Assembly: GCF_014205075.1 (NCBI RefSeq)
Contig: NZ_JACHMU010000001.1
Span: 1,922,001-1,986,000, forward strand
Direction of reading: 5' to 3'
Origin: Microbacterium ginsengiterrae
GTDB lineage: Bacteria > Actinomycetota > Actinomycetes > Actinomycetales > Microbacteriaceae
DNA length: 64,000 nt
The stretch's first letter is position 1; each line of letters begins with the position of its first letter. This document shows, in pieces, positions 24,618 to 45,686 of this stretch. A model generated the notes under the pieces. That model worked only from the letters and a program-made list of their open reading frames with translations. It was not told where the DNA came from and ran no database searches. The position numbers and the translations under genes are program-made.

Positions 24618-24743
24618 GTTCACGGGCTTGTCTGCGGCACACTCGTCGTGACCACAGGCCGTATCTGGCCCGCCGTCCTCGTCCATGTCGTCTACAACGG
24701 CAGTGGCGTTCTGCTCACTGTCGCCGGAACGATGCTCGCCTAA
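24618..24743 (+). pseudogene. Remnant of a second CPBP protease gene (last ~39 codons)
   Basis: Reading from 24624 gives GLVCGTLVVTTGRIWPAVLV followed by HVVYNGSGVLLTVAGTMLA and a stop. This is nearly the same as the C-terminal 39 residues of the intact CPBP gene at 22159-22911 (GLVCGALVVTTGRILPAVLV, then HAIYNASGVLLAVAGTLLG). Homology stops abruptly upstream, where an in-frame stop appears at 24612-24614. No other part of the gene is present. It therefore looks like the tail of a deleted paralogue. Its stop overlaps the convergent esterase stop. Confidence 0.8.
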
Positions 24744-25729
24744 GCCTCGAGCCGAGAAGCGAGCCACCCGGCCTGACGCACCCAGTGCGCGTGCTGACCG
24801 CCCTCGTGCCCGTTGAACGAATAGACCTCGATCTCGGCATCCTGCGACGCGACATGATTGAACGCTGCGAAGACGCTTGACGGCAGCACGATCCCGTCCA
24901 TCAGCGCCACCGAGAACAGTGCGGGCTGGGTCAGGCGTTGCGCGAAGTTCACCCCGTCGAAATAGGAGAGAGTCTGGAACGCTTGCTCGACGCGGTCGCG
25001 ATGGACGGCCAGGTAGCGCTCGATCTCCCGGTACGGGTTGTCGGGAGTCAGCTCGACCGACCGACGGAAGTGGCACAGGAACGGCACGTCGGGCATCGCC
25101 GCGAACACCTCGCCGTGCAGCGCCGCCGCAGCCAGCGTGATGCCGCCGCCCTGGCTCGCACCGGTCACGCTGACCCGAGCGGCGTCGACGAAGGGGAGGG
25201 ATCGCACCGCATCCACCGCCATCACGGCATCCGTGAACAGGCGCCGATAGTAGTACTGCGCGGGATCGAGGATGCCCCGCGTCATGAAGCCCGTCGTCGC
25301 GCCGTCCGAACCATGCGGATCCGGAGTGTCGCCGCCGGAACCCCAGTTCGACCCCTGACCGCGCGTGTCCATGAGGACGTGAACGTAACCGGCGCTCGCC
25401 CACTGCAGGCGTTCGCCGGCGATCCCGCGGCCTCCGCCGTAACCGATGTACTCCACGATCGCTGGGAGCGCGGCGTGGGTGCGCGGACGCGTCACCCACG
25501 CCCGGATCGGCTCGCCTCTGAACCCCGAGAACGTGAGGTCCTCGACGATCAGCTGCGTGATCGGCGTCTCCGCCGGCGCGAGCACCGGGTCGGTCGCCGC
25601 AGCGCGGGACTCCGCGATCGTCGACGCCCAGAAGTCGTCGAAGTCGGCGGGAGCAGCCACGTCGGGGCGGTAGGAGCGGAGGTCTTCCAGGGGCATGTCA
25701 GTCAGCGGCACCCGGTCAAAGTACCGCAT
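24740..25729 (-). CDS. Acetyl-xylan esterase / cephalosporin-C deacetylase family (CE7) acetyl esterase
   Basis: 329 residues from ATG 25729; an ATG three codons upstream is also possible. CE7 hallmarks are the RGQGSNWGS oxyanion region, the nucleophile Ser192 in GASQGGG, and the C-terminal catalytic His in FNGHEGGQ. These cytoplasmic or secreted alpha/beta hydrolases remove O-acetyl groups from short oligosaccharides; no signal peptide is present, so intracellular action is expected. It is divergent from an oligosaccharide importer with LacI-type operators between them. The context suggests deacetylation of imported plant-glycan fragments. Confidence 0.9.
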   Translation of the reverse strand: MRYFDRVPLTDMPLEDLRSYRPDVAAPADFDDFWASTIAESRAAATDPVLAPAETPITQLIVEDLTFSGFRGEPIRAWVTRPRTHAALPAIVEYIGYGGGRGIAGERLQWASAGYVHVLMDTRGQGSNWGSGGDTPDPHGSDGATTGFMTRGILDPAQYYYRRLFTDAVMAVDAVRSLPFVDAARVSVTGASQGGGITLAAAALHGEVFAAMPDVPFLCHFRRSVELTPDNPYREIERYLAVHRDRVEQAFQTLSYFDGVNFAQRLTQPALFSVALMDGIVLPSSVFAAFNHVASQDAEIEVYSFNGHEGGQHAHWVRQAGWLASRLEA

Positions 25730-25740
25730 GTCACGCATGT

Positions 25741-25756
25741 TTCGAAGCGCTTCGCT
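25741..25756. promoter_or_regulatory. LacI-type operator next to the esterase start
   Basis: TTCGAAGCGCTTCGCT contains the perfect 12-bp palindrome CGAAGCGCTTCG at 25743-25754. It lies 3-27 bases upstream of the esterase start codons and matches the core of two other sites at 25797 and 33681. The central CG and flanking GAA/TTC are typical of LacI/GalR-family operators. Confidence 0.65.
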
Positions 25757-25796
25757 TTGGCTGTTGCGCGGAGCGCGTCGAGCGTCTAGTCTTCGA

Positions 25797-25812
25797 GTCG
25801 AAGCGGTTCGAC
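25797..25812. promoter_or_regulatory. LacI-type operator upstream of the importer operon
   Basis: GTCGAAGCGGTTCGAC is a 16-bp imperfect palindrome (outer 6 bp perfect), 42 bases upstream of the permease ATG. It shares the pattern GAArCGsTTCG with the sites at 25741 and 33681. It is probably bound by the regulator encoded at 30297-31271. Confidence 0.65.
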
Positions 25813-25854
25813 AAATCGACGACGATCGAACCGCGTACTACGAGGCGGTTCACG

Positions 25855-26859
25855 ATGACGATCACCACGCCCACCACCGTCACCAGGACGTTGGCCGAGC
25901 AGCTCGACGAGAAGGGCGAACGCTCGCCCCGCGCACGCAAGCGCCAGGAGAAGCGTGCCGGCGGCCGCAAGTCCTTCGGCATGTTCCTGGTCATCGTGCC
26001 GTTCCTCGTGCTGGTGTTCCTGTTCAGCTACTTCCCGCTCTACGGGTGGATCTACTCCCTCTACGACTACAAACCCGCGCTCGGCCTCGAGGGCAGCGAG
26101 TTCGTCGGGCTCCAGTGGTTTCAGTTGCTCGTCAGCTCTCCCACGCAGATGGCGCAGATCGGGCAGGTGCTGCTGAACACGCTGGCGATCAGCTTCCTCG
26201 GCATCCTCACCTCGATCCTCCCGCTCGCCTTCGCGATCTTCCTCAACGAGGTCCGCGCCAAGTGGTTCCGCAACGCCGTGCAGACCCTGACGACGCTGCC
26301 GAACTTCATCTCGTGGGTGCTCGTCTACATGATCGCCTTCTCGTTGTTCTCCAGCTCCGGCCTCGTCAACAACGTGCTGGCGGACTTCGGGCTCATCACC
26401 GCCCCGATCAAGTTCCTCGACACGAGCGAGAACATCTGGCTCGTCATGACGCTGTGGAGCGTGTGGAAGGGCCTCGGCTGGGGCGCGATCATCTACCTCG
26501 CCGCCATCAGTGGCATCGACCCCTCCATGTACGAGTCGGCCAAGATCGACGGCGCCGGGCGCTTCCAGACCATGTGGTACATCACCGTCCCCGCCCTCAT
26601 GCCGACCTACCTCGTCCTCCTGCTGCTGTCGGTGGCGAACCTGCTCAACAACGGCATGGAGCAGTACTTCGTGTTCCAGAACGCCTTCAACATGCAGTGG
26701 ATCCAGGTGCTCGACTTGTACGTCTACAACATCGGCATGACGGGCAACAGCCTGTCGATGGCCACCGCGATCGGAATGCTCAAGAGCATCATCTCGGTCA
26801 TCCTCCTGTTCACCGTCAACGGCATCGCCAAGCGTGTGCGCGGCGAAGCGATCGTCTGA
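25855..26859 (+). CDS. Oligosaccharide ABC importer, permease (LplB/YteP-type)
   Basis: 334 residues with an N-terminal cytoplasmic arm rich in Lys/Arg and six membrane helices. The ABC permease EAA loop reads YESAKIDGAGRFQTMWYITVP. KSFGMFLVIVPFLVLVFLFSYFPLYGW at the start and the overall order match the LplB/YteP group that imports large oligosaccharides. GAGGCGG precedes the ATG. It pairs with the next permease and the lipoprotein. No ATPase is encoded; actinobacterial importers of this type usually share an MsiK-like ATPase encoded elsewhere. Confidence 0.93.
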   Translation: MTITTPTTVTRTLAEQLDEKGERSPRARKRQEKRAGGRKSFGMFLVIVPFLVLVFLFSYFPLYGWIYSLYDYKPALGLEGSEFVGLQWFQLLVSSPTQMAQIGQVLLNTLAISFLGILTSILPLAFAIFLNEVRAKWFRNAVQTLTTLPNFISWVLVYMIAFSLFSSSGLVNNVLADFGLITAPIKFLDTSENIWLVMTLWSVWKGLGWGAIIYLAAISGIDPSMYESAKIDGAGRFQTMWYITVPALMPTYLVLLLLSVANLLNNGMEQYFVFQNAFNMQWIQVLDLYVYNIGMTGNSLSMATAIGMLKSIISVILLFTVNGIAKRVRGEAIV

Positions 26860-26872
26860 GAGAGGCCGGACA

Positions 26873-27832
26873 ATGACCGCGCTCGACACCGCGCTGAAAA
26901 CGCGCCCCACGCGCCCATCCGCCCACCGCACGCCCGAACGGCGCTCCGGCGGCGACATGCTCTTCGCGATCGTGAACTACACGGTCTTCGGACTGCTCGT
27001 CGTGATCTGCGCCTACCCCTTCTACTACCTGATCATCAACTCGGTCAGCGCCAACGACCTCTCCGCGCTCGGCGAGGTGCGCCTGCTGCCGAGCGGATTC
27101 CACCTCGAGAACTACCAGCAGGTGTTCGCACTGAACGGGTTGTCCATGGCCGCCGTCGTCAGCGTCGCCCGCACCGTCATCGGCACGGTCGCGACGGTGC
27201 TCGCATCCGCCTTCCTCGGGTTCATGTTCACCCAGAGCAAGATGTGGGCCCGCCAGTTCTGGTACCGCTTCGTCATCGTCACGATGTACTTCAGCGCCGG
27301 CCTCATCCCGATCTTCATCATCATGAAGAACCTCGGCCTCACCAACAACTTCTGGGTCTACGTGCTGCCGTTCATCGTGCAGCCGTTCTTCATCATCCTC
27401 GTGAAGACCTACGTCGAATCGATGCCGGAGTCTCTGCAGGAGGCCGCCGAACTCGACGGTGCCAACATCGTGCAGATCTTCTTCAAGGTGTACCTGCCGA
27501 ACATGACGCCGATCCTCGCGACCGTCGCGATCTTCGCCGCCGTCGCACAGTGGAACAGCTTCCAGGACACCCTGATCTACATCACCGACCAGAGCCTGTA
27601 CACGCTGCAGTACCTGCTCTACATGTTCATCAACCAGGCATCGAGCCTCGCGCAGGCCGCGCAGAACGCCGGCGGCGACCTCAGCGCGATCGCCGGAGCG
27701 GCCACATCGCAGACGCCCACATCCATCCGCATGACGGTGTCGGTGATCGTCGTGCTGCCCATCATCTTCATCTACCCCCTGTTCCAGCGCTTCTTCGTGA
27801 AGGGCATCATGCTGGGCGCCGTCAAGGGCTGA
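26873..27832 (+). CDS. Oligosaccharide ABC importer, permease (LplC/YtcP-type)
   Basis: 319 residues from an ATG at 26873 with GAGAGG upstream, 13 bases after the first permease. There are six helices, and the EAA loop reads LQEAAELDGANIVQIFFKVYLP. LINSVSAND and LPSGFHLENYQQVF early in the protein are typical of LplC/YtcP. It forms the membrane channel with the preceding gene product. Confidence 0.93.
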   Translation: MTALDTALKTRPTRPSAHRTPERRSGGDMLFAIVNYTVFGLLVVICAYPFYYLIINSVSANDLSALGEVRLLPSGFHLENYQQVFALNGLSMAAVVSVARTVIGTVATVLASAFLGFMFTQSKMWARQFWYRFVIVTMYFSAGLIPIFIIMKNLGLTNNFWVYVLPFIVQPFFIILVKTYVESMPESLQEAAELDGANIVQIFFKVYLPNMTPILATVAIFAAVAQWNSFQDTLIYITDQSLYTLQYLLYMFINQASSLAQAAQNAGGDLSAIAGAATSQTPTSIRMTVSVIVVLPIIFIYPLFQRFFVKGIMLGAVKG

Positions 27833-27863
27833 CGCGTCTTCGCACCATCAGAAAGGAAAAGCA

Positions 27864-29618
27864 ATGAAGCTGAAGCGGAAAGCGGCGGCGGGGATCGCCG
27901 CACTTCTCGCGATCGGTCTGCTCACGTCCTGCACCGGAGGAAACTCCGACAAGGCCGTGGAGCAGGTCGACTCGTTCCCGAGCCAGTGGGACGAGGAGAT
28001 CACGATCGACGTCTTCGACGGCCTCGCCAACTACATGGGCGTGCAGGAGGGCTGGTTCGGGAAGATCGTGAAGGACAAGTTCAACATGAAGTTGAACGTC
28101 ATCGCCCCGAACGTCGCCGGCGGTGGCGACACCCTCTACAACACGCGCGTCTCGGCGGGTGACCTCGGCGACCTCATCATCGTCAACAAGGGCGAGCAGC
28201 TCGACGAGCTCATCCAGGGCGGACTCGTCGCCGACGCCACCCCCTACCTCCCCGCCATGGAGCACGTCGACCGCTTCGACATGGCCCTCGAGAAGCTCAA
28301 CGAGAACGTCGACGGCGTCTACGCCTTCCCGACCTCGGTCTCCAGCATCCCGCCGACCGAACCCTCCGAGGGCATCGACCCGACCTTCGGGCCGTTCCTC
28401 CGCTGGGACCTCTACGCCGAACTCGGCTACCCCGAGATCGGCACGCTCGAAGACCTGCTGCCGATCCTGCAGGACATGCAGGAGCTCGAGCCGACCGCCC
28501 CGAACGGACAGAAGGTGTACGCCCTGTCGCTGTTCAAGGACTGGGACGGCAACTTCATGAACAACGCCAAGCAGCCGATCACCTACTACGGCTATGACGA
28601 AGTGCAGTTCGCGCTCGCCATGGCCGACGGCTCCGACTACCAGGGCATCCTCGACGACGACGGCATGTACGAGCGGGTGCTCCGCTTCTTCAACAAGGCC
28701 AACGAGATGGGCCTGGTCGACCCGGAGTCGACGACGCAGAACTACGACACCCTGTGGTCGAAGATGCAGAACGGGCAGGTGCTGTTCACCTGGTGGCCGT
28801 GGCTCGGACAGTCCGCCTACAACACCGACGAGAACATGGCCGCCGGCAAGGGCTTCATGATCGCCCCGATGCAGGACCAGAAGATCTTCTCCTACGGTGC
28901 CGAGGCCTACGGCGGCAAGCCGATCCTCGCGATCGGCAAGAACGCCGACGACCCCGAGCGGGTCGCCGCGTTCATCGACTGGCTGTACTCGGCCGAGGGC
29001 TCGCTGACCAACAGCAGCCAGACCATGGGCGCCGCAGGCCCCCAGGGCCTCACGTGGGACATGAACGACGCCGGCGAGCCCGAGCTCACCGACTTCGGCA
29101 AGGAGGTCTTCCTCGGCGGTGACGCTGCGGTCCCCGCCGAATGGGGCGGCGGCAACTACCTCGACGGCGTCTCCGCGCTGAACGTCAGCGTCGTGCTGCC
29201 GATCGACATCGACCCCGACACCGGCTACCCGTACAACTACAAGCTCTGGGACTCGTACCAGGAGTTCACGGCCAACCTCCTCACCGAGGACTGGGCAGCC
29301 CACATGGGCGGTGCCGCCACCACGATGGACTACCTCGTCGAGAACGACCAGGTCCTCGTCGCCCCCGGTGCGAGCTTCACCGTCCCGACGGACAGCTCCG
29401 AGATCGAGACGCTGCGCAACCAGGTGAAGGCCGTCATCGTGCAGTCGTCGTGGCAGGCGGTCTTCGCCGAGAACGAGGCGCAGTTCGACAAGATCTGGAC
29501 GGACCTGCAGGAGACCGCGTCGGGCCTCGGATACGACAAGGTGCTCGAGGTCGACCTTGCAACCGCGAAGGAGCAGGACAAGCAGCGCAAGGCCGTGGTG
29601 GAGGAATTCGCCGAATAA
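27864..29618 (+). CDS. Oligosaccharide-binding lipoprotein of the ABC importer
   Basis: 584 residues. A lipoprotein signal (MKLKRK, hydrophobic core, LLTSC with Cys23 as lipidation site) anchors it outside the membrane. The large family-1 extracellular solute-binding domain (LplA/YtcQ type, longer than the usual 420-450 residues) contains DGLANYMGVQEGWFGKIVKDKFNM and aromatic-rich stretches such as FTWWPWLGQSAYN, suited to stacking on sugars. AAAGGAAAAG precedes the ATG. Its size fits oligosaccharides rather than monosaccharides. A strong terminator follows. Confidence 0.93.
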   Translation: MKLKRKAAAGIAALLAIGLLTSCTGGNSDKAVEQVDSFPSQWDEEITIDVFDGLANYMGVQEGWFGKIVKDKFNMKLNVIAPNVAGGGDTLYNTRVSAGDLGDLIIVNKGEQLDELIQGGLVADATPYLPAMEHVDRFDMALEKLNENVDGVYAFPTSVSSIPPTEPSEGIDPTFGPFLRWDLYAELGYPEIGTLEDLLPILQDMQELEPTAPNGQKVYALSLFKDWDGNFMNNAKQPITYYGYDEVQFALAMADGSDYQGILDDDGMYERVLRFFNKANEMGLVDPESTTQNYDTLWSKMQNGQVLFTWWPWLGQSAYNTDENMAAGKGFMIAPMQDQKIFSYGAEAYGGKPILAIGKNADDPERVAAFIDWLYSAEGSLTNSSQTMGAAGPQGLTWDMNDAGEPELTDFGKEVFLGGDAAVPAEWGGGNYLDGVSALNVSVVLPIDIDPDTGYPYNYKLWDSYQEFTANLLTEDWAAHMGGAATTMDYLVENDQVLVAPGASFTVPTDSSEIETLRNQVKAVIVQSSWQAVFAENEAQFDKIWTDLQETASGLGYDKVLEVDLATAKEQDKQRKAVVEEFAE

Positions 29619-29631
29619 CGGATGCTGTGCA

Positions 29632-29664
29632 GAAGGCCCGGGGCGCGACGCGCTCCGGGCCTTC
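29632..29664 (+). terminator. Rho-independent terminator after the importer operon
   Basis: A 15-bp stem with one G-T pair (GAAGGCCCGGGGCGC / GCGCTCCGGGCCTTC) and a GAC loop, 13 bases after the lipoprotein stop, is followed by CTTATATATA. It also separates this operon from the convergent YesL gene. Confidence 0.9.
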
Positions 29665-29678
29665 CTTATATATAGGGG

Positions 29679-30296
29679 TCAGGCGCCGGGGGTGTGGCGG
29701 GCGAAGATGCTCCGGAACAGGAACGCCGTGCCGTACGCGCCGACGGAGAAGCCGACCGTGGCGAGGATGACGCCGAACATGGGGAACAGGATCGTCACGC
29801 ACACGAGAGTGGCCGGAACGAGAAGAAGCCCCATCGTGCGGATCGGCTCTGCCGTCGGGAGAAGCAGCGCGTTCTTCAGCGTCGCCCGCACGGGGTTGTC
29901 GTACACCGCCGTCAGCGCCATGGCGTAGAGGAACGCGGCGAAGACGTGCACGGCCGCGAGGATCGACACGACCATCGCGATGCCGCCGACGATCGTGGGG
30001 GAGCCCGACCAGAACAGTGCGCTGAACGCGAGCACGATCACGGCGGGCAGCAGCACGAGCCCGAGCAGCGACGCCTTCTTGGCGTTGCGCCCGAACGCCG
30101 GCATGAAGTCCTTCAGCGGACGCCCGCTCTCATCGTCCGAATAGCGGATCGTCACCTCGTACAGCGCCGCCGTCGCCGCAGGGATCGTCACGATCGGCAG
30201 ACACAGCGCGAGATAGAGGAGATTGAGCGCGACGAAGCCGAGGAAGCCGGTCACGCCCTGCGCCGTACGCCCCTCCGGGTCGATGCCGATGCGCAC
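29679..30296 (-). CDS. YesL/DUF624-family membrane protein
   Basis: 205 residues from a GTG at 30296 directly after the LacI stop (TGAGTG). Five hydrophobic helices are visible, and the opening GVTGFLGFVALNLLYLALCLPIVTIPAATAALY is the DUF624 signature. YesL-like proteins accompany LplABC-type oligosaccharide importers and plant-glycan enzymes in many Gram-positive loci, but their function is not established. It is the last gene of the GH95-LacI-YesL operon. Confidence 0.85.
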   Translation of the reverse strand: MRIGIDPEGRTAQGVTGFLGFVALNLLYLALCLPIVTIPAATAALYEVTIRYSDDESGRPLKDFMPAFGRNAKKASLLGLVLLPAVIVLAFSALFWSGSPTIVGGIAMVVSILAAVHVFAAFLYAMALTAVYDNPVRATLKNALLLPTAEPIRTMGLLLVPATLVCVTILFPMFGVILATVGFSVGAYGTAFLFRSIFARHTPGA

Positions 30297-31271
30297 TCAG
30301 ACCGCCGAAGCCCCGGAGAAGCGCGGCTGCAGCAGCCGGACCCGCTCGGTCGTCTCGCCCTCGAGCGCACCGAGGATCGCCCGCGCGGCCGCCGCGCCGA
30401 TCTCGGTCGCCGGCACCTCGATCGTGTCGACGAGGCCCGCGACGCCATGAACGAGCTGCAGCGGGCTCAGCGCGATGACGTCGCGCTTCGTCGCGTCGTT
30501 GCGCACGTGCGCGGCGACGTGGGGGAGCGCGGCCTCGTTGTGGAACAGGATGCCGGTGATCGCCGCATCCTCGTCGAGCACGGCATCCACGGCATCCACC
30601 GCATCCGCGGAACTCGGGCAGGCATGCACGGAGCCGGTGATCCCCAGCTCCTCGCACGCCGCGAGGAACCCGCGGTTCAACCGCACCGCATACGAGGTGT
30701 GTCGCTCGAGGACCTCGGCCGGCGCCCCGAACAGCGCGACCCTCGTGTGGCCGAGAGCAGCGAGGCGCTCGGCGGCCAATCGCCCCGCGGCCTCGAAGTC
30801 GAAGTCGACGCAGATGAGATCGCCGGCCCCCGACGGCAGCCCGATGAGCACCGTCGGCGTCGAGAGCTCCCGCAGCGTCGCGATACGGGGGTCCTCCGAC
30901 TCGATGTCCATGACCATGAGCGCATCGACGCGCGACCCCCGCGCGGCGTTCACCAGGCCGTCGGCATCGTCACTGGTCAGCAGCAGGATGTCGTAGTGGT
31001 TGTCCCGCGCCTCCTTCACGACGCCCGCGACGATCTCCATGATGACGTGCACGTCGACCCCGGCGCGGAGCGGCGCCTGCAGCCCGATCACGTTCGTCGA
31101 CCGCGACGCGAGCGAACGCGCACTGGCATGTGGGCTGTACTCGAGCTTCGCGATCGCGGACTCGACCCGCTCCCTGGTGTCCTGCGAGATGGTGCGCTTG
31201 CCGCTCATCACATAGGACACCGTCGAGATCGAGACGCCGGCTGCTGCTGCCACATCGGCGATCGTCACCAT
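30297..31271 (-). CDS. LacI-family transcriptional regulator of the glycan locus
   Basis: 324 residues. The N-terminal LacI helix-turn-helix and hinge are clear (TIADVAAAAGVSISTVSYVMSGKRTISQDTRERVESAI, then YSPHASARSLAS). The rest is the periplasmic-binding-protein-like effector domain ending in PATEIGAAAARAIL. It overlaps the 3' end of the GH95 gene by 7 bases and adjoins the YesL gene, so it is autoregulated if its operon carries the operator at 33681. It probably represses importer and hydrolase operons until a sugar from the substrate binds. Confidence 0.92.
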   Translation of the reverse strand: MVTIADVAAAAGVSISTVSYVMSGKRTISQDTRERVESAIAKLEYSPHASARSLASRSTNVIGLQAPLRAGVDVHVIMEIVAGVVKEARDNHYDILLLTSDDADGLVNAARGSRVDALMVMDIESEDPRIATLRELSTPTVLIGLPSGAGDLICVDFDFEAAGRLAAERLAALGHTRVALFGAPAEVLERHTSYAVRLNRGFLAACEELGITGSVHACPSSADAVDAVDAVLDEDAAITGILFHNEAALPHVAAHVRNDATKRDVIALSPLQLVHGVAGLVDTIEVPATEIGAAAARAILGALEGETTERVRLLQPRFSGASAV

Positions 31272-33658: not shown

Positions 33659-33664
33659 GTGGTT

Positions 33665-33670
33665 AGTATA
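33665..33670 (-). promoter_or_regulatory. Predicted -10 element of the GH95 operon
   Basis: On the minus strand TATACT lies 6 bases before the GH95 ATG at 33658. Transcription would then start about at the ATG and give a leaderless mRNA. This is consistent with the absence of a purine-rich ribosome-binding site before that ATG. Confidence 0.5.
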
Positions 33671-33680
33671 TGTTCTCGTT

Positions 33681-33696
33681 GTTGAAACGCTTCGAC
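33681..33696. promoter_or_regulatory. LacI-type operator between the GH95 and GH42 operons
   Basis: GTTGAAACGCTTCGAC is an imperfect 16-bp palindrome (6 of 8 pairs) with the same core as the sites at 25741 and 25797. It sits where the -35 region of the GH95 promoter is expected, and 22 bases upstream of the GH42 ATG, so a bound repressor could block both directions. Confidence 0.65.
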
Positions 33697-33718
33697 AATT
33701 CGACGGAGAACTCTGAAA

Positions 33719-35749
33719 ATGTCATCGACGACCACGGCGCGAGCCGCCTTCGACGCGCTCATCAGCGAGCGCGGGCTGGCCTTCGGTGGTGACTACAACC
33801 CCGAGCAGTGGCCGCGCGAGACCTGGCTCGAGGACGTGCGGCTCATGCGCGAGGCCGGGGTGAACTTCGTCACCGTCGGCGTGTTCAGCTGGGCGATGAT
33901 CGAACCCCGCCCCGGCGCCAGGGAGTGGGGCTGGCTCGACGAGATCCTCGAACTCCTCCACGACAACGGCATCGCCGTCGACCTCGCCACGCCCGTCGCC
34001 TCGCCGCCGCCATGGCTGGGCCTCCAGCATCCAGAGGTGCTGCCCGTCGACGCCGACGGCGTGCGGCTGATCGCCGGATCCCGCAACCAGTTCTCCCCGG
34101 CATCCCGCGTCTACCGTGAGCATGCACTCGCCATCACCCGTGACCTCGCCGCGCGCTACGCCGGCCACCCGGCCGTCCGGATGTGGCACGTCGGCAACGA
34201 ATACGGGCAGATCGACCACGGCGACGAGGCCGCCCGCGAGTTCCGCCACTGGCTGCGCGAGCGCCACGGCGACATCGACACGCTCAACGCCGCCTGGAAC
34301 ACCGCGTTCTGGTCGCAGCGGTACGACTCGTTCGACGAGATCCTGCCGCCGCGCCGCATGCCGTACCTCGTCAACCCCGCGCAGTCGCTCGACTTCCGCC
34401 GGTACAGCTCCGACCAGCTGCGCGCCTGCTACCGCGAGCTGCGCGATGCGATCCGCGCCGCGGGAGCGCAGCAGCCCATCACGACGAACTTCATGGGCTT
34501 CTTCGCACACGTCGACTACCACTCGTGGGCGGGCGACGTCGACGTCATCTCCGACGACCAGTACCCCGACCCCGCCGATCCGCACGCGCCCAGCGACATC
34601 GCCCTCGTGCAGGACCTCATGCGCTCACTCGGCCGAGGACGCAGCTGGATGCTCATGGAGCAGTCCATCAGCGCGGTCTCGTGGCGCGAGCACAACCTGC
34701 CGAAGTCGCCGCGGCGCGCGCGACGCGACTCGCTGCAGGCCGTCGCGCGAGGAGCAGACGCGATCTGCTTCTTCCAGTGGCGCCAGGCGCGCTCGGGCGC
34801 CGAGCGCTTCCACTCGTCGATGCTCCCGCACGCCGGTGCCGACAGCGACGTGTTCCGCGGTGCCTGCCGCCAGGGGGCCGACCTCCGCCGCCTCGCCGCC
34901 GTCGCGGGCAGCACCGTGCGCACCGACGTCGCGATGCTGTTCGACTGGTCGAGCTGGTGGGCGGGGGAGGAGCCGGCCCGCCCCACGCACCGGCTGTCGA
35001 CCATGGAGCAGATGAACCGCTGGTACCGGTCGCTGTGGCGCCGCGGCATCCCCGTCGACGTCCTGCACCCCGACGCCGACCTCGACGGCTACCGGGTCAT
35101 CCTCGTGCCGCACGCGTACATCCTCAGCGATGCGGCCGCCGCCGCGCTCGCCGCGGCCGTCGAACGAGGAGCACAGGTCGTCGTCGGCCCATTCAGCGGT
35201 GTCGCCGATGACAACGCGGGCATCCTGCAGGGACGATCGCCCGTGCAGCTGCGCACCCTCATCGGCGCCAGCGGCGAGGAGTGGTCCGGCATCCTCCCCG
35301 GCTCCCTTCGCCTGGCGGGCGACCTCGCAGCGGCCGACGACCCGCAACCGACGGCGAGCATCCTCGCCGAGCGCCTGCGCGTCGAAGGCGGAGAGGTCAT
35401 CGCGACCCACGACGGCGGCGAACTCGACGGCATCCCCGCCATCGTCCGGAGCACCGGCACGTGGTACCTCGGCACCGTCGTATCGGACGGCACGCTCGAT
35501 GCCGTCCTCGCCGGCGCCCTGGCCGCCGCGCACGTCACCGGCCCCATCCCCGGAGTCGAGGTCCTCCCCGACGGCCTCGAAGCCGTCCGGCGCGGCGACG
35601 TGCTGTTCCTCCTGAACCACACGCACCACCCCATCGATGTGCCGGTGAGACCGGGTCTGATCGACCTGCTCACCGGAGAAGAGACCGAAGACGTCGTCGG
35701 CATCGCGCCGGGTGATGTCCGAGCACTGAGCGAAAGGCACGACAGGTGA
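33719..35749 (+). CDS. GH42 beta-galactosidase
   Basis: 676 residues, typical family length. The TIM barrel contains FGGDYNPEQWP at 22-32, the general acid Glu161 in WHVGNEYG and the nucleophile Glu314 in MLMEQS. A trimerisation domain (VAMLFDWSSWWA and following) and a small C-terminal beta domain follow. No signal peptide, so the enzyme is cytoplasmic. It should release terminal beta-galactose after the fucose has been removed. First gene of a three-gene operon; its stop overlaps the GTG start of the GH31 gene (GTGA). Confidence 0.94.
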   Translation: MSSTTTARAAFDALISERGLAFGGDYNPEQWPRETWLEDVRLMREAGVNFVTVGVFSWAMIEPRPGAREWGWLDEILELLHDNGIAVDLATPVASPPPWLGLQHPEVLPVDADGVRLIAGSRNQFSPASRVYREHALAITRDLAARYAGHPAVRMWHVGNEYGQIDHGDEAAREFRHWLRERHGDIDTLNAAWNTAFWSQRYDSFDEILPPRRMPYLVNPAQSLDFRRYSSDQLRACYRELRDAIRAAGAQQPITTNFMGFFAHVDYHSWAGDVDVISDDQYPDPADPHAPSDIALVQDLMRSLGRGRSWMLMEQSISAVSWREHNLPKSPRRARRDSLQAVARGADAICFFQWRQARSGAERFHSSMLPHAGADSDVFRGACRQGADLRRLAAVAGSTVRTDVAMLFDWSSWWAGEEPARPTHRLSTMEQMNRWYRSLWRRGIPVDVLHPDADLDGYRVILVPHAYILSDAAAAALAAAVERGAQVVVGPFSGVADDNAGILQGRSPVQLRTLIGASGEEWSGILPGSLRLAGDLAAADDPQPTASILAERLRVEGGEVIATHDGGELDGIPAIVRSTGTWYLGTVVSDGTLDAVLAGALAAAHVTGPIPGVEVLPDGLEAVRRGDVLFLLNHTHHPIDVPVRPGLIDLLTGEETEDVVGIAPGDVRALSERHDR

Positions 35750-38046
35750 AGTTCACCGATGGCTACTGGCTGACCCGACCGGGGCTCACCCCGCTGTTCG
35801 CGGTCGAGGTCGACGACATCCGCATCGACGAGACGGCGGGGACCCTCACCGTCTACGCTCCGACGACCCACATCCGCCACCGCGGCGACACGCTGAACCG
35901 CCCCATGATCACGGTGACCTACTCGTCGCCGGCACCGGGCGTCGTCAAGGTGCGCGTGCAGCGGCACGCCGGCGCCGTGCACCGCGGACCGGACTTCGCG
36001 ATCACCGCCGAGGACGGCTTCACCCCGTCGGTCTCCGTCAGCGACACCGAGGGCGTGCTGCGCACCGGTGACCTCACCGTCCGCGTGGCCCGCGGCGACG
36101 GCTGGAACGTCACCTTCGAAGAGGACGGCCGGGTGCTCACCCGCTCCGAGCCCCGATCGATCGCCCACTACACCGAGACGGCGTCGCGCGACCACGCCGC
36201 CCCGCGCACCTGGGTGCACCAGCAGCTCGCCCTCGCCCCCGGCGAGCGGGTCTACGGATTCGGCGAGCGCTTCGGCGCCTTCGCGAAGAACGGTCAGGTC
36301 ATCGAGAGCTGGAACGCCGACGGCGGCACATCCAGCGAACAGGCTTACAAGTCCGTGCCGTTCTACCTCTCGGCCCGCGGCTACGGCGTGCTCGTCGACG
36401 ACCCGGGGGCGGTGTCCTTCGAGGTCGGCAGCGAGGTCAACTCCCGCGTGCAGTTCTCGGTCGAGGGCGAGACGCTCGACTACTACCTCATCGGCGGCGG
36501 CACGCCCAAGGCCGTGCTCAGCCGGTACACGGCACTCACCGGCCGCCCGGCACGCGTGCCGGCATGGTCGTTCGGCCTGTGGCTCACCACCTCGTTCACC
36601 GCCGAGTACGACGAGGCGACCGTCAACGAGTTCATCGACGGGTTCGAGGAGCGGGGCCTCCCGCTGAGCGTCTTCCACTTCGACTGCTTCTGGATGCGCG
36701 AGTACCAGTGGACCGACTTCGAATGGGACCCGCGGACCTTCCCCGACCCCGAGGGGCAGCTCGCGCGGCTGCACGAGCGCGGCCTCAAGGTCTCGGCCTG
36801 GATCAACCCGTACATCGCCCAGCGCTCTGCACTGTTCGCCGAAGCCGCAGCCAACGGCTACCTGCTCCGCCGCACCGACGGCAGCATCTGGCAGTGGGAC
36901 CTGTGGCAGGCGGGCATGGGCATCGTCGACTTCACGAACCCCGACGCCGCCGCCTGGTACGTCGGCCACCTCGAGCGCCTCATGCAGCAGGGCGTCGACA
37001 CGTTCAAGACCGACTTCGGCGAGCGGATCCCGCACGAGGGTGTGGAGTGGTTCGACGGCTCCGACCCCGCCCGCATGCACAACTACTACCCGCAGCTCTA
37101 CAACGAGGTCGTCTTCCGCGCCCTCGAGAAGCAGCGCGGAACCGGAGAGGCCGTGCTGTTCGCCCGCTCGGCGACCGCCGGTGGACAGCAGTTCCCCGTG
37201 CACTGGGGCGGCGACTCCGACTCGACGTTCTCGTCGATGGCCGAGTCCCTGCGCGGCGGCCTGTCGCTGGCGATGAGCGGCTTCGGATACTGGAGCCACG
37301 ACATCGGCGGATTTGAGGGGATGCCGGATGCCGGACTCTTCAAGCGCTGGCTCGCCTTCGGCCTGCTCTCCTCGCACTCTCGGCTGCACGGCTCCAGCAG
37401 CTTCCGGGTGCCGTGGATCTTCGACGACGAGGCCGTCGAGGTCACCCGCGCCTTCACGAACCTGAAGATGCGGCTCATGCCGTACCTCGCACAGGTCGCC
37501 GAAGAGGCCCATGCCGACGGTATCCCGATGATGCGTGCCATGGTGCTCGAGTTCCCCGAGGACCGCTCCGGTCACGACGCCGACACGCAGTACATGCTCG
37601 GCGACTCCCTCCTCGTCGCGCCGGTGTTCACCGCCGAGGGCGATGTGTCGTACTACCTGCCCGAGGGGGAGTGGACCTCGCTGCTGGACGGCTCGGTCGC
37701 TCAGGGCAGCCGCTGGGTCGACGAGACGCACGACTACCTCTCCGTCCCGCTGCGCGTGCGCCCCGGCACCGTGCTCCCGTGGGGTGCGGACGATGCGCGC
37801 CCCGACTACGAGTGGGCCGACGGCGTGACGCTCCGCTGCTTCGCGCTCCCCGACGGGTACGACGAGGTGACGGTGGTCCCAGGGCTCTCCGGCGGCTCGA
37901 CGTCGTTCCGTGTCCGGCGCGCCGGTGACACCGTGACGGCGTCGAGCACGGATGCCACGGCATCCTGGTCTGTGCAGGTCGGCGACGCCGTCGCATCCGC
38001 CGACGGAGCGGGCGAGATCTCGATCACGCTGGAGGGCACCCGATGA
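35746..38046 (+). CDS. yicI: GH31 alpha-xylosidase (YicI-type)
   Basis: 766 residues from a GTG coupled to the GH42 stop. Order: N-terminal beta-sandwich (1-270), TIM barrel (270-600), C-terminal beta domains. The nucleophile is Asp423 in FKTDFGERIP and the acid/base is Asp490 in GGDSDST. FDCFWM near 313-317 is characteristic of the YicI xylosidase subgroup rather than alpha-glucosidases. No signal peptide. It would remove alpha-1,6-xylose from the non-reducing end of xyloglucan oligosaccharides. Its stop overlaps the GH3 start (ATGA). Confidence 0.93.
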   Translation: MKFTDGYWLTRPGLTPLFAVEVDDIRIDETAGTLTVYAPTTHIRHRGDTLNRPMITVTYSSPAPGVVKVRVQRHAGAVHRGPDFAITAEDGFTPSVSVSDTEGVLRTGDLTVRVARGDGWNVTFEEDGRVLTRSEPRSIAHYTETASRDHAAPRTWVHQQLALAPGERVYGFGERFGAFAKNGQVIESWNADGGTSSEQAYKSVPFYLSARGYGVLVDDPGAVSFEVGSEVNSRVQFSVEGETLDYYLIGGGTPKAVLSRYTALTGRPARVPAWSFGLWLTTSFTAEYDEATVNEFIDGFEERGLPLSVFHFDCFWMREYQWTDFEWDPRTFPDPEGQLARLHERGLKVSAWINPYIAQRSALFAEAAANGYLLRRTDGSIWQWDLWQAGMGIVDFTNPDAAAWYVGHLERLMQQGVDTFKTDFGERIPHEGVEWFDGSDPARMHNYYPQLYNEVVFRALEKQRGTGEAVLFARSATAGGQQFPVHWGGDSDSTFSSMAESLRGGLSLAMSGFGYWSHDIGGFEGMPDAGLFKRWLAFGLLSSHSRLHGSSSFRVPWIFDDEAVEVTRAFTNLKMRLMPYLAQVAEEAHADGIPMMRAMVLEFPEDRSGHDADTQYMLGDSLLVAPVFTAEGDVSYYLPEGEWTSLLDGSVAQGSRWVDETHDYLSVPLRVRPGTVLPWGADDARPDYEWADGVTLRCFALPDGYDEVTVVPGLSGGSTSFRVRRAGDTVTASSTDATASWSVQVGDAVASADGAGEISITLEGTR

Positions 38047-40532
38047 ACTTCCGACGCACCGACCTGTCCGTGCGCGAGCGCGCCGCGGACCTTCTCACGC
38101 AACTGACGCCGGACGAGCGGCTCGCCATGCTGCACCAGGCGATGCCGGCGATCGAGCGGTTGGGGGTCGCGGAGTCCCGCACCGGCGCCGAAGCGCTGCA
38201 CGGTGTCGCCTGGCTCGGCACCGCCACGGTGTTCCCGCAGCCGGTCGGCATGGCGGCGACCTGGGATCCCGAGCTCGTCGAGGCGATCGGCGAGGTGGCG
38301 GCGACCGAGCTGCGAGCCAAGCGCGCCGAGAACCCGCTCGTGAGCCTCAATGCCTGGGCGCCGGTGGTCAACACCCTGCGCCACCCGCAGTGGGGCCGCA
38401 ACGAGGAGGGCTACTCCGAGGACCCGCACCTCACCGGTCAGCTCGGATGCGCGTACGCCCAGGGCCTCCGCGGACGGCACGAGCGGGTGTGGAAGACGGT
38501 ACCGGCGCTCAAGCACTTCCTCGCCTACAGCAACGAGACGGACCGGTCGGCGACCTCGAGCGAGATGTCGCTCCGCACGCTCCACGAGGAGGAGCTCCCC
38601 GCGTTCCGCCCGGCGATCGAGCAGCAGACCGCCGGGTCCATGATGCTCGCCTACAACCGGGTCAACGGCACCCCCGCGCACACCCAGCCGGAACTCGTCG
38701 CCGAGGCCCGCAGCTGGACCGACGGGTCGCTCGCGATCGTGTCGGATGCCGGTGCGCCGACGTTCATGGTCACGATCCAGGGCGCGCAGCCCGACGGCGT
38801 GCACGCCGCGGCCGCCCTCGTCCGCAGCGGCATGGACTCCTTCACCGACAACGACGCCGACGCCGGCCCCACGATCGCCCACCTCACCGCCGCGCTCGAG
38901 CAGGGGCTGCTCAGCCGCGAGGACATCGATCGGGCGGCGGCACGCATCCTCGAGATGCGCATCCGCACCGGCGAGTTCGACGCCGACGACCCTCACGCGG
39001 GGATCGGCGCCGACGCCATCGATGCGCCGGACGCACGCGCCCTCGCCCGTGAAGCGGCAGGACGATCGGTCGTCGTGCTCCGCAACGATGCCGGACTCCT
39101 CCCGCTCGCCGAGCCGCAGCGCATCGCCGTGGTCGGTCCGCTCGCGGACGCCGTGCTCACCGACTGGTACTCCGGCACGCCGCCGTACGCGGTCGGCATC
39201 GCCTCCGGCCTGCGGGCGCGATACCCCGACGCTGCGGTGACGGTGGAGACCGGCGCCGACACGATCAGGCTCCGGGCGGCGGACGGGCACGATGTCGTCG
39301 CCTCGGCCGACGGCGCAGAGGTCGCGGCGATCGGCGCAGCGTCATCGGGGGAGGAGGCGCTGTTCGACGTCACCGACTGGGGTGACGGTCTGCTCACCCT
39401 CCGATCGCACGCCAGCGGCCGACTGCTCACCGGTGGCGCGTGGCCGATGAAGGCCGACGCCGAGCGGGTCGGCGGCTGGGTCGTGCAGGAGAGCTTCTGC
39501 AGGCACGAGCACGCCGACGGCACCTGGTCGCTGCTGCACCTCGGCTCCGGACGCTGGGTGCGCGTCTCGCGCGACGTCGGCCTCCTTCTCGCCGAGGGCG
39601 TCACCCTCGACGACGCGGCGCGCTTCGACGTCGAGACCGTGCGCTCGGGGAGCGACGCGGTGGCGGCGGCCGCGGCATCCGCCGACGTCGTCGTCGTCGC
39701 GGTCGGCAACGATCCGCACCTCGCAGGGCGCGAGACCGCCGACCGGCCGCACCTCTTCCTTCCCGAGGCGTTCGTCGGCATCTGGCGCACGGCGCAGCAG
39801 GCGAACACGAACACTCTGCTGACAATCGTGTCCAGTTACCCGTATGTGCTTGGCGAGGCGGATGCCGCGGCGTCGGTCGTCTGGTCGAGCCACGGCGGAC
39901 AGGAACTCGGCAACGGCATCGCGGACGTCCTCAGTGGAGACCGCGAACCCACGGGGCGCCTCGCGCAGTCCTGGCCCGCTGACCCCGCGCAGGCCGGCGA
40001 CCTGTTCGACTACGACACGCTGCGCCAGCAGGCGACCTACCGTCACCAGCCGGACCCCTACGCGTTCGCGTTCGGACACGGCCTGACCTACTCGTCGGTG
40101 GCGTACGCGTCGATCACCGCGACCGCGGCCGTCTCTGCGCCGGAACCCACCCACCGGCACGCCGCCCTCGGAGAGCCGGGTGACGTGCAGGTTGCCGTCA
40201 CCGTCGCCAACGACGGCGACCGCCCGGCCGAGGAACTCGTGCAGGTGTACGCCCTCGCGCCGTCGACGCTGCCCCTTCCCGCTCCGCGCCGACTGCTCGT
40301 CGCCTACCGGCGGGTGCGGCTCGAACCCGGCGAGCGCCGAGACGTCGCCCTGTCGTTCGACGTGGCGCGGCTCGCGGTCTGGGACGACGCGCTCCGGGTG
40401 GACGAGGCGCCACAGGACTGGCTGCACGAGGGAGCGTTGCGCGTCCAGCCGGGGACCTATGTGCTCGCGGCCGGCCCGAGCGCGGACGAGTTGCCGGTCT
40501 CGGCGGAGCTGACGGTGCACGCGGCATCCTGA
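38043..40532 (+). CDS. GH3 beta-glucosidase/xylosidase with an inserted beta-trefoil-like domain
   Basis: 829 residues, start coupled to the GH31 stop. The N-terminal barrel has KHFLAYSNE near 157-165 and the nucleophile Asp235 in IVSDAG. The alpha/beta sandwich resumes with HGGQELGNGIADVLSGDREPTGRLAQSWP near 618-645, and a FnIII-like domain ends the protein. Between the two catalytic domains, residues about 405-535, sits an extra module (FDVTDWGDGLLTLRSHASGRLLT, WSLLHLGSGRWVRVS) that looks like a fascin/ricin-type beta-trefoil. No signal peptide. It probably trims backbone glucose once xylose is removed; the exact sugar is uncertain. Confidence 0.9.
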   Translation: MNFRRTDLSVRERAADLLTQLTPDERLAMLHQAMPAIERLGVAESRTGAEALHGVAWLGTATVFPQPVGMAATWDPELVEAIGEVAATELRAKRAENPLVSLNAWAPVVNTLRHPQWGRNEEGYSEDPHLTGQLGCAYAQGLRGRHERVWKTVPALKHFLAYSNETDRSATSSEMSLRTLHEEELPAFRPAIEQQTAGSMMLAYNRVNGTPAHTQPELVAEARSWTDGSLAIVSDAGAPTFMVTIQGAQPDGVHAAAALVRSGMDSFTDNDADAGPTIAHLTAALEQGLLSREDIDRAAARILEMRIRTGEFDADDPHAGIGADAIDAPDARALAREAAGRSVVVLRNDAGLLPLAEPQRIAVVGPLADAVLTDWYSGTPPYAVGIASGLRARYPDAAVTVETGADTIRLRAADGHDVVASADGAEVAAIGAASSGEEALFDVTDWGDGLLTLRSHASGRLLTGGAWPMKADAERVGGWVVQESFCRHEHADGTWSLLHLGSGRWVRVSRDVGLLLAEGVTLDDAARFDVETVRSGSDAVAAAAASADVVVVAVGNDPHLAGRETADRPHLFLPEAFVGIWRTAQQANTNTLLTIVSSYPYVLGEADAAASVVWSSHGGQELGNGIADVLSGDREPTGRLAQSWPADPAQAGDLFDYDTLRQQATYRHQPDPYAFAFGHGLTYSSVAYASITATAAVSAPEPTHRHAALGEPGDVQVAVTVANDGDRPAEELVQVYALAPSTLPLPAPRRLLVAYRRVRLEPGERRDVALSFDVARLAVWDDALRVDEAPQDWLHEGALRVQPGTYVLAAGPSADELPVSAELTVHAAS

Positions 40533-41779: not shown

Positions 41780-42454
41780 TCACGCCAGGGTCGCGCGCAG
41801 CACCCGTGCGACCTCGCGGACAGCGGGCACGAGCTGCGCCGCCGACTCCTCGTACGTCTCGCGTGAGCGCCGGTACGGGTCGATGACATCGTCGTCCTGC
41901 GGCGGTACCGGAGGCACCGCGCCACGCTGCTGCGTGACGAGTGCAGTGACGGCGGCCAGGCGAGCACGCGGCGCGGTGCCGGCGGCGTCCGCTGCGGCCG
42001 CGATCGCACCATCGCTCAGGTCACCGGAGAGCCGTGCGAACTCGCGGATCGTGAACGTCTGCCGCAGCAGCCGAGGAGCGAGCTCGACCGCGCCGGTGCG
42101 GTGCTCGCGGGCCATGGTGAGCACGAGGTCGGCATCCTCGGCGATCGGCTCGAGAAGCCAGCGGGCGCGATGCGCCGCGACGACGTCCTCCGATGCGCCG
42201 TACTGCACGGCGAGGTCCTGCGCGTCGGCCGTCATGGGCTTGTCGATGAGCGCCCTGGTACCCGCACTGTGCACGCGCACCGGCGTGCCCTCCAACTCGG
42301 CCCGCAGCAGCGCCTCGGCCATGGGGGAGCGGCAGATGTTCCCCGTGCACACCGTGAGGATCCTCACCGGTTCGTCGCCCGCGCGCGCCCGCAATGCCTC
42401 TGCCCGCTCGCGCAGTTCGCGTCGGGTCATACCGGAGGGCAGGGAGGAGCTCAT
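41780..42454 (-). CDS. Low-molecular-weight protein tyrosine phosphatase
   Basis: 224 residues from an ATG at 42454. The P-loop CTGNICRS (Cys36, Arg42) and the general-acid Asp in DPYRRS near the C-terminus define an LMW-PTP. It is longer than the usual 150-160 residues because of an N-terminal extension and an extra helical segment. In polysaccharide systems such enzymes dephosphorylate Wzc-type kinases, and the kinase at 20583-22076 is a plausible partner. It is divergent from the lipoprotein/GT2 run. Confidence 0.9.
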   Translation of the reverse strand: MSSSLPSGMTRRELRERAEALRARAGDEPVRILTVCTGNICRSPMAEALLRAELEGTPVRVHSAGTRALIDKPMTADAQDLAVQYGASEDVVAAHRARWLLEPIAEDADLVLTMAREHRTGAVELAPRLLRQTFTIREFARLSGDLSDGAIAAAADAAGTAPRARLAAVTALVTQQRGAVPPVPPQDDDVIDPYRRSRETYEESAAQLVPAVREVARVLRATLA

Positions 42455-42548
42455 GTCTCCACAATAAGAGGCCGGAAGCCCCGAGCAGTCCACCGGATCC
42501 GCTCCCATAAGATGGCACTGAGTCGCCCCGCGGCTCCGAGAGGGGATC

Positions 42549-43157
42549 ATGCGTACGACACTCGTTCGGCGTGCCATCGCGGCCACCGCGGCGGTCGCCG
42601 CATCCATCGCCATCGTCGGCTGCGGCCCCGCTCCCTGGAGTGACGGACCCGAGGCGTCGAAGTCGCCGTCGCCCACTGTCGCGCCGCCCGCTCCCAACGA
42701 CCTCTCCGGGGGTGCGACAGAGCGCGAGCTCACCGCAGGAGCCGTCACCGCCCAGGTCGACTACTGGTCGACGCTCTCGATGGATCGGTGGACGGCGGAT
42801 GCCGTCAAGCCGGTGAGCATCTCGCTGGTCACCACCGTCACCCCTGACGACGGGCAGAAGGTATACCTGCAGAAGGCGTCGATGCTCGCCGTCCCCGCGA
42901 ACGCGACGGAGACCTTCGCTCCGCTCGAGGCGCAGGTCGATGCCGCCAGCGTCGCCCCCGGCTACCTCGTGCTCTCGCCGTACAGCTATTCGCAGACCTT
43001 CAACGTCGGGCCGGTCGACCCCGCGGCGACGCACGTGACGATCCAGTTCACCTACGACTTCCTCGTGCAGACGACGCCGACCTCCAGCGAATACGCAAAG
43101 CAGACGGCGACGGACACTCTCACCGTCGCGATCGCGCAGCCCGCCGACGCGGAGTGA
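42549..43157 (+). CDS. Lipoprotein, function unknown (paralogue of the next lipoprotein)
   Basis: 202 residues with GAGAGGGG upstream of the ATG. The signal peptide ends in a lipobox-like IVGC (Cys25). A Pro/Ser linker is followed by one beta-rich domain (ITAQVDYWSTLSM-like segment, VSISLVTTVTPDDGQKVYLQKA). The C-terminal part (THVTIQFTYDFLVQ ... DTLTVAIAQPADAE) aligns with that of the next gene (YGITLQFAINVAVE ... QTLPIAIHAPTE), so the two are paralogues. They directly precede a processive GT2 gene, hinting at a role in export or anchoring of its product. Confidence 0.82.
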   Translation: MRTTLVRRAIAATAAVAASIAIVGCGPAPWSDGPEASKSPSPTVAPPAPNDLSGGATERELTAGAVTAQVDYWSTLSMDRWTADAVKPVSISLVTTVTPDDGQKVYLQKASMLAVPANATETFAPLEAQVDAASVAPGYLVLSPYSYSQTFNVGPVDPAATHVTIQFTYDFLVQTTPTSSEYAKQTATDTLTVAIAQPADAE

Positions 43158-43165
43158 TCGACGGC

Positions 43166-43198: not shown

Positions 43199-43280
43199 AC
43201 GGCATAACGCCGAAAACCGCGAGAATGCGCGGGTAACGTGACCGGTGCTCATCATCCCGCATCTTCAGAAGCCGGTCCTC

Positions 43281-45588: not shown

Positions 45589-45622
45589 CAACAACTTCAC
45601 AGAACGGCTGGGGACGCCAGAG

Positions 45623-45671: not shown

Positions 45672-45686
45672 TCGTTATAGATGCGT

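Follow-up and report, generated by a model that had tools for sequence, protein, structure and literature searches.

The window analysed here, a 64,000-base stretch of Microbacterium ginsengiterrae covering positions 1,922,001-1,986,000 of a complete 3,037,642-base chromosome, contains a compact locus that is best read as an import-first system for the utilisation of xyloglucan oligosaccharides (XyGOs), in which fragments would be scavenged, imported and taken apart in the cytoplasm under LacI repression (probability roughly 0.78). Its ten genes encode a carbohydrate esterase of family CE7, a permease pair, a 584-residue lipoprotein binding protein, a YesL protein, a LacI regulator and glycoside hydrolases of families GH95, GH42, GH31 and GH3. 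A first-pass annotation had proposed the stepwise breakdown of acetylated, fucosylated XyGOs at this locus. Its gene list proved right, as all ten genes are open frames where it placed them (open reading frame list, Pfam, NCBIfam), and its choice of XyGOs as the target is well supported by the GH31 equivalog assignment, a weak match of the binding protein to 9PMY, the nested enzyme content of related loci, a shared operator and the precedent of R. cellulolyticum. Four more specific parts of that interpretation did not stand as stated: gene order as order of action, a plain GH3 glucosidase, fucose as the GH95 target and galactose-linked acetyl as the CE7 bond. The xyloglucan outline is thus very likely, whereas a cascade of one enzyme per bond in gene order is not established. 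Chance origin of the cluster can be dismissed because further genomes, also of other genera, have it as well. The closest named relatives of the window's proteins come from Microbacterium.

The proposed mechanism begins outside the cell, where other organisms would cut xyloglucan. The binding protein, a cluster-G lipoprotein, would capture whole oligosaccharides, and the permease pair would import them with the help of an ATPase encoded elsewhere. In the cytoplasm, GH95 would take off terminal alpha-1,2-L-fucose (or L-galactose), GH42 beta-galactose and GH31 alpha-1,6-xylose, while GH3 would shorten the backbone and CE7 would take off acetyl groups. Each of the two divergent promoters contains a palindrome, at which a LacI repressor would hold the locus silent until an inducer is present, probably one of the oligosaccharide intermediates.

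Judged by strand and spacing, the genes would form three transcription units plus the CE7 gene. The first (plus strand) comprises the two permeases and the substrate-binding protein (SBP), the second (minus strand) GH95, lacI and yesL, and the third (plus strand) GH42, GH31 and GH3. The GH42/GH31 and GH31/GH3 junctions each overlap by 4 bases, and the GH95 and lacI genes, on the opposite strand to the third unit, overlap by 7 bases. CE7 diverges from the permeases with 116 bases between them, and GH95 diverges from GH42 across 60 bases. None of the five enzymes has a hydrophobic start, as had been noted before; by hydropathy, the only measure of export used here, the highest 12-residue mean within the first 50 residues is 0.32-1.03 in these enzymes versus 2.55 in the lipoprotein and 3.18 in the window's GH6 protein.

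The alpha-xylosidase call for GH31 is the firmest of the enzyme assignments, as far as sequence comparison can establish an activity. The protein scores 1181.5 bits, above the cut-off of 606, for PRK10658, the NCBIfam equivalog of alpha-xylosidases, and has both catalytic aspartates, D423 and D490. The catalytic roles of these and the following residues were read from alignments and in part from what is known of the families. GH42 has the expected E161 and E314. The CE7 protein combines an AXE1 domain with the Ser-Asp-His triad (S195/D281/H311), its best match in the PDB is the Thermotoga acetyl xylan esterase 1vlq (E 1.2e-102), and an orthologue (76%) occupies the same position in the related locus L103. 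The bond that had been assigned to CE7, acetyl on galactose, lacks support in this form, since the xyloglucan acetylesterase of Xanthomonas founded a different family, CE20.

The GH95 catalytic domain contains the two Asn, the Glu and the Asp of its family (N380/N382/E578/D689), and its Thr378 sits where AfcA has His419. One alternative, which we hold to be quite improbable, is that this enzyme is an alpha-L-galactosidase for side chains capped with L-galactose. Thr378 stands at the position proposed, in the case of T370 of BACOVA_03438, for binding O6 of L-galactose, and 4ufc is among the PDB matches of GH95. Against this reading, L-galactose on xyloglucan is rare in nature. The family is described as showing both L-fucose and L-galactose activity, the Thr/His position not being decisive (PMC8245568, PMC10063614), and the original preference for fucose over L-galactose lacks support in that form. 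XacAfc95 of Xanthomonas has the same Thr and is reported to be fucose-specific, with its T395H exchange having no effect (PMC8245568); fucose specificity of the Microbacterium enzyme is therefore likely, though unproven.

The importer has the makeup of the R. cellulolyticum type, with two permeases, one SBP and an ATPase elsewhere. A single UgpC/MsmK-type ATPase above the cut-off is found elsewhere in the genome (473.5 bits) and would energise the importer. Neither Pfam nor NCBIfam gives a match for the SBP at E 0.001; its size of about 60 kDa and a predicted fold resembling AlgQ2 and FusA nevertheless place it among the cluster-G sugar-binding proteins. Its best PDB profile match is the xyloglucan-binding protein 9PMY, a weak one (whole-sequence E 8.6e-4), for which a dissociation constant of 14 nM for XXXG is reported (PMC12710961). 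In the related locus L107 (8306-12119) the SBP gene is present in two tandem copies.

Both divergent promoters share a 25-bp palindrome, GTYGAARCGSTTCGACAAWTCGACG. When up to three mismatches are allowed, the 25-mer has exactly two sites in the 3.04-Mb genome, both in the locus, and the reversed control has none. Conservation was followed through 12 homologous loci (the window, L003, L004, L013, L015, L016, L103-L107 and L109), defined by having both an SBP homologue of at least 100 bits and a GH31 gene in view. The core GAANCGNTTC has at least one perfect copy in each of 20 promoter regions drawn from the window and 11 other loci. With up to one mismatch on either strand, the 14-mer TYGAARCGNTTCGA has 27 sites in these loci (20 kb of the window being used for this count), and every one lies in a promoter region; such regions make up 7,382 of 248,992 bases (3%), and all 23 hold at least one site. 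The motif was derived from the window, which contributes three of the 27 sites; the other 24 are independent of the choice of motif, though the loci share descent, and because of this relatedness a binomial value of 10^-41 for promoter placement overstates the case. The same type of site occurs on the transporter side and on the enzyme side, also where GH95 and GH42 are not present, so that a palindromic operator accompanies each promoter of the putative LacI-repressed regulon. The most likely regulator of these predicted operators is the LacI protein of the locus, which is encoded in all 12 loci; the five other LacI matches in the genome are 32-38% identical to it. The palindromes TCGAAGCGCTTCGA and TCGAAACGATTCGA also recur in Microbacterium genomes (L126-L154), TCGAAGCGCTTCGA often adjoining other LacI genes, and appear to be a family of related LacI operators.

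A total of 82 loci were surveyed, and 19 loci were looked at in detail. L108 and L110 were left out of the set of 12, as each has the SBP on a stretch that ends at a contig end, with GH31 outside it. Other GH31 loci among L003-L082 have no homologue of the SBP in the stretch, and several of them combine GH42, GH3 or CE7 differently. Among the 12 loci, LacI and GH31 are found in all (GH31 by selection), GH42, GH3 and YesL in ten each, GH95 in eight and CE7 in two (the window and L103). GH42 is missing from L004 and L013, GH95 from these two and from L016 and L104, and YesL from L015 and L016, where GH3 is not in view either; the L103 stretch shows just the first 41 residues of GH3, and L003 begins inside permease 2, so that its CE7 region lies outside view. 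Within this set GH95 occurs solely alongside GH42, and CE7 solely alongside GH95. This nesting is the order to be expected if each enzyme takes off what caps the next, and is supportive rather than decisive. Gene order is a different matter. The idea that the operon order mirrors the order of action lacks support, as elsewhere GH3 is found on the opposite side or strand and GH95 is placed differently. The GH95 proteins of L105-L107 stand apart as a clade of their own, with a long branch (1.61 changes per column, 100/100) between them and those of the window, L003, L103, L009 and L015, and their genes stand upstream of the permeases, not beside lacI (the L109 copy is partial and of unsure placement); at least two distinct GH95 lineages thus appear to have joined the same core. 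Across the family, the SBP has a match at E 0.001 in 17 of 299 genomes and exceeds 600 bits in just eight, the window's genome included, so that the system is sporadic.

Two further alternatives turn on this enzyme content. The locus could serve complex side chains of cereal arabinoxylan (alpha-Xyl-1,3-alpha-L-Gal-1,2-beta-Xyl-Ara, with beta-galactose and acetyl) instead of xyloglucan, which we regard as very unlikely. GH31, GH95, GH42, CE7 and a GH3 of the xylosidase type would fit the bonds of such chains, a GH95 alpha-L-galactosidase has been described from B. ovatus, and L004 has a GH127 gene of the beta-L-arabinofuranosidase family right after GH3 (14860-16833, plus strand) in a locus without GH95 or GH42. 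The GH127 enzyme would suit arabinosylated side chains, which occur on some xyloglucans as well. Against arabinoxylan stand the GH31 protein, which is a YicI equivalog, the poor fit of L004 and L013 (GH31 and GH3, with neither GH95 nor GH42 in view), the lack of GH67 in the genome, and the lack of any arabinofuranosidase, glucuronidase or feruloyl esterase family among the scanned window proteins in or beside the locus. A different fucosylated galactoside as the substrate, for example the glycans of arabinogalactan proteins or free sugars resembling fucosyl-lactose, is extremely improbable, for every one of the 12 loci has the alpha-xylosidase, whereas some do without GH95 and GH42; GH31 in view was a selection criterion, so the weight of this argument rests on the loci without GH95 and GH42. 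As a separate observation, the related locus L104 (genome G215) adjoins a gene (353-6877, plus strand) whose 2174-residue product has domains of the GDSL type and of rhamnogalacturonan lyase family 11.

The GH3 enzyme is the weakest link in the earlier interpretation, which had made it a plain beta-glucosidase. It has the expected catalytic residues D235 and E564. At a position of subsite -1, on strand c, for which Asp in beta-glucosidases and Glu in beta-xylosidases have been compared (PMC6987092), it carries Glu50. Two enzymes with Glu are termed bifunctional xylosidase/beta-1,4-glucosidases in the same source, and the Microbacterium protein may still have glucosidase activity. In two fungal xylosidases, TrXyl3A (Trp87) and PcBxl3, a Trp packs on C5 (PMC8913315); Gly48 of the Microbacterium protein aligns with the Trp of XlnD that is the counterpart of TrXyl3A Trp87, the enzymes in this comparison being fungal. 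Ala236 directly follows the nucleophile. These features are conserved: of 30 GH3 rows from the surveyed loci, 29 share Gly48 and Glu50 (the remaining row, L027, being masked there) and all 30 have the Ala, the rows including Streptomyces, Cellulomonas, Kribbella and Saccharothrix. The best NCBIfam model is a xylosidase, far under its cut-off (346.7 versus 1250 bits), and structural matches of the predicted model do not separate glucosidases, xylosidases and isoprimeverose-producing enzymes. An insertion in the C-terminal domain is probably a beta-trefoil, to judge from the model; in some relatives Pfam recognises fascin (PF06268) or ricin-type (PF14200) domains.

The context of ten of the 12 loci favours an action of GH3 on the XyGO backbone, releasing either glucose after GH31 or isoprimeverose before it. 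The second order, which runs counter to that of the genes and in which GH3 would accept alpha-xylosylated glucose at subsite -1 and release isoprimeverose for GH31 to split, is unlikely. Isoprimeverose-producing enzymes are not the best sequence matches of the protein in the PDB (21ji, 150.8 bits, and 5yot, 139.5 bits, versus 188.4 bits for 5z9s). Those described in PMC6325624 are also reported to be inactive when the non-reducing end is galactosylated, and the GH3 of R. cellulolyticum required the action of GH31 first (PMC4780118). A broader proposal is similarly doubtful, namely that the GH3 clade found near YicI-type GH31 genes in several actinobacterial genera (Gly48/Glu50/Ala236 in the pocket and, in the window's protein, the probable beta-trefoil within the second domain) has an undescribed specificity as a cytoplasmic enzyme, be it isoprimeverose release from 6-O-xylosylated backbone glucose or one otherwise tuned to XyGOs, with the host a pure scavenger of fucosylated XyGOs in which GH3 would act before the alpha-xylosidase. 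As its pocket agrees with neither of the textbook classes, the enzyme deserves to be assayed.

The absence of a nearby endo-xyloglucanase, already pointed out in the first-pass annotation, holds across the genome for four families. A genome search gave no match to GH5, GH9, GH12 or GH74-type profiles, and the same profiles found their targets among 14 control genomes (GH5 in six, GH74-type in four, GH12 and GH9 in two each); a Sortilin-Vps10 model was used for what we take to be the GH74 type. The locus therefore probably scavenges. The window does contain a GH6 gene (46860-47897, minus strand; PF01341, 189.8 bits), whose product has a hydrophobic stretch at its N-terminus; its neighbours are genes for a GGDEF protein (47848-48972) and a histidine kinase (48969-51062). 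GH6 enzymes are cellulases, and no operator-like site lies upstream of this gene within two mismatches.

Several observations weigh against the proposed system of import and cytoplasmic breakdown. In the match of the SBP to 9pmy the best single stretch has an i-Evalue of only 0.17, and 9pmy is not among the best 50 matches listed by Foldseek or VIA for the binding-protein model. The GH3 enzyme has the xylosidase-type Glu50 in place of the Asp of GH3 beta-glucosidases. Perfect 14-mers occur in 44 of 59 genomes of the genus, in many cases next to other LacI genes, and the reversed 14-mer matched 22 times in the same genomes, so that the short motif is not private to the regulator of the locus. 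The nesting of GH95 within GH42 has a chance of about 0.09 even for independent loci, and these loci are related. Outside the set of 12, L048 and L058 have CE7 and GH42 but no GH95, L108, which a contig end cuts short, shows CE7 with neither GH95 nor GH42 in view, and in L010 a GH95 match (46%) stands without GH42. Finally, GH16 and others lay outside the search for polymer-cutting enzymes, and the GH44 search was silent in the control genomes too and hence uninformative.

A lead outside the window concerns the last step of the pathway. The R. cellulolyticum cascade is described as leaving cellobiose (PMC4780118, PMC8576529), and a GH1 beta-glucosidase could split it as a remote regulon member in Microbacterium. 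The candidate gene (G000:C1:2060303-2061739, or L125:7304-8740 on the minus strand; PF00232, 515.6 bits) has a perfect 14-mer at G000:C1:2061784, 45 bases upstream of its start and about 76 kb beyond the window end. In seven genomes there are 14 distinct perfect sites, and the other 13 all lie in the xyloglucan type of locus; as given above, the next LacI paralogues in the genome are distant. Counter to this link, the six relatives among these genomes have no perfect site outside the locus, GH1 is found in none of the 29 loci L126-L154, similar palindromes adjoin other LacI genes in the genus, and from the matches of the reversed control one stray site per few genomes is to be expected.

Coordinates of the locus features are collected in Table 1. 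For permease 2, the ATG at 26873 is a likelier start than the listed GTG. YesL scores 73.8 bits against NF052431, under the cut-off of 160. Two terminator-like hairpins were observed in the region versus 2.6 expected in shuffles, and what stands out in the one listed is the length of its stem.

Table 1. Features of the predicted XyGO locus (positions in the window)
Feature	Position	Strand	Evidence or remark
CE7 carbohydrate acetylesterase, predicted cytoplasmic	24740..25738	-	Pfam AXE1 343.9 bits
Second, weaker operator-like palindrome TCGAAGCGCTTCGC	25742..25755	.	1 mismatch to TYGAARCGSTTCGA; CE7/permease intergenic region
Predicted LacI-type operator, transporter side GTCGAAGCGGTTCGACAAATCGACG	25797..25821	+	1 of 2 genome sites within 3 mismatches; kept in homologous loci
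CUT1 ATP-binding cassette (ABC) permease 1	25855..26859	+	PF00528 (BPD_transp_1) 68.6 bits
CUT1 ABC permease 2	26834..27832	+	PF00528 (BPD_transp_1) 40.4 bits
Lipoprotein SBP, 584 residues, predicted cluster-G fold	27864..29618	+	
Terminator-like hairpin, 15 pairs	29632..29664	.	Between convergent SBP and yesL genes
YesL/DUF624 (MusI-like) small membrane protein	29679..30296	-	PF04854 46.7 bits
LacI-family regulator	30297..31271	-	PF00356 65.5 bits; 12/12 homologous loci
GH95 alpha-L-fucosidase/galactosidase family enzyme, predicted cytoplasmic	31265..33658	-	PF22124 490.9 bits
Predicted LacI-type operator, enzyme side GTTGAAACGCTTCGACAATTCGACG	33681..33705	+	Inside 60-bp divergent GH95/GH42 promoter
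GH42 beta-galactosidase family enzyme, predicted cytoplasmic	33719..35749	+	PF02449 468.1 bits; best PDB matches beta-galactosidases 9ta3, 4ucf
GH31 YicI-type alpha-xylosidase, predicted cytoplasmic	35746..38046	+	Pfam GH31 301.9 bits; YicI 1we5 E 5.4e-275
GH3 glycosidase, predicted cytoplasmic, atypical -1 subsite (Glu50, Gly48, Ala236)	38043..40532	+	Pfam N/C domains 117.9/139.5 bits
Beta-rich insertion in GH3_C domain, residues ~405-535	39255..39647	+	Twelve strands, residues 406-534; whole-protein model pLDDT (predicted local distance difference test) 85.8

Elsewhere in the window, an exopolysaccharide-type cluster (2397-24310) includes a UDP-sugar dehydrogenase, a dTDP-rhamnose fusion gene, glycosyltransferases, a flippase, a Wzz/kinase, a sugar transferase and a Wzy-like gene. 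Within it, a GDP-mannose 4,6-dehydratase gene (10452-11483) lies beside an epimerase gene (9472-10494) that possibly makes GDP-L-fucose, and the cell may also make a fucosylated polymer. Three long open frames, the overlapping pair 42021-44504 and 43894-45696 and the frame 54135-56357, have no Pfam match at E 0.1.

The GH31 protein belongs to the same NCBIfam equivalog as YicI of E. coli and conserves its catalytic Asp residues; to our knowledge, YicI is not located with GH95, GH42 or GH3 in E. coli. The Xanthomonas xyloglucan utilisation locus (XyGUL) resembles that of Microbacterium in combining GH95, GH31, a beta-galactosidase and an esterase in one cascade, but the Xanthomonas and Bacteroides XyGULs are described as relying on TonB-dependent import, on GH35 in place of GH42 and on a CE20 esterase, with GH74 inside the Xanthomonas locus (PMC8245568). 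The ten locus proteins include no SusC/SusD pair of the Bacteroidetes type by Pfam, the genome not having been searched for one. Closer in its importer is Athe_2052-2057 of Anaerocellum bescii, with a cluster-G SBP, two permeases, no adjacent ATPase and a GH31 in the locus (PMC12710961). Its SBP, of 551 residues, is the best PDB profile match of the Microbacterium protein, though remote in sequence. A. bescii differs, as far as the available description goes, in that GH42 (Athe_1927) lies elsewhere, a putative fucosidase (Athe_2072) is not far away and the genome has a GH74 enzyme, CelF.

The closest parallel is R. cellulolyticum, which is reported to import XyGOs and to use cytosolic GH42, GH31 and GH3 enzymes (PMC4780118). 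In both organisms these three genes are clustered and lack typical signal sequences (by hydropathy here), the importer consists of two permeases and one SBP, and import precedes debranching, or would do so in Microbacterium (PMC4780118, PMC8576529). R. cellulolyticum differs in having a two-component/AraC-type regulator and cellulosomal xyloglucanases, and the portions of its description at hand name no fucosidase in its own cluster; the legend of Figure 12 in PMC4780118 mentions comparable clusters in more distant organisms, some with alpha-fucosidase genes. The Microbacterium locus in turn has LacI, GH95, CE7, YesL, a GH3 insertion and no match for four endo-glucanase families in its genome. 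If it is indeed a scavenger, xyloglucan breakdown would be a division of labour in which one organism cuts and another imports the fragments. The predicted operator is an aid in recognising the regulon elsewhere, and the loci, in which GH31 stands with or without GH42, GH95 and CE7, form a natural series on which the side chain served by each of these enzymes can readily be tested. The locus extends the import-first strategy of R. cellulolyticum and Anaerocellum to Microbacterium and the Actinobacteria near it, in the form of a LacI-type system; the strategy itself is known, and the Microbacterium locus adds to it a LacI-type operator system, local GH95 and CE7 genes and an odd GH3.

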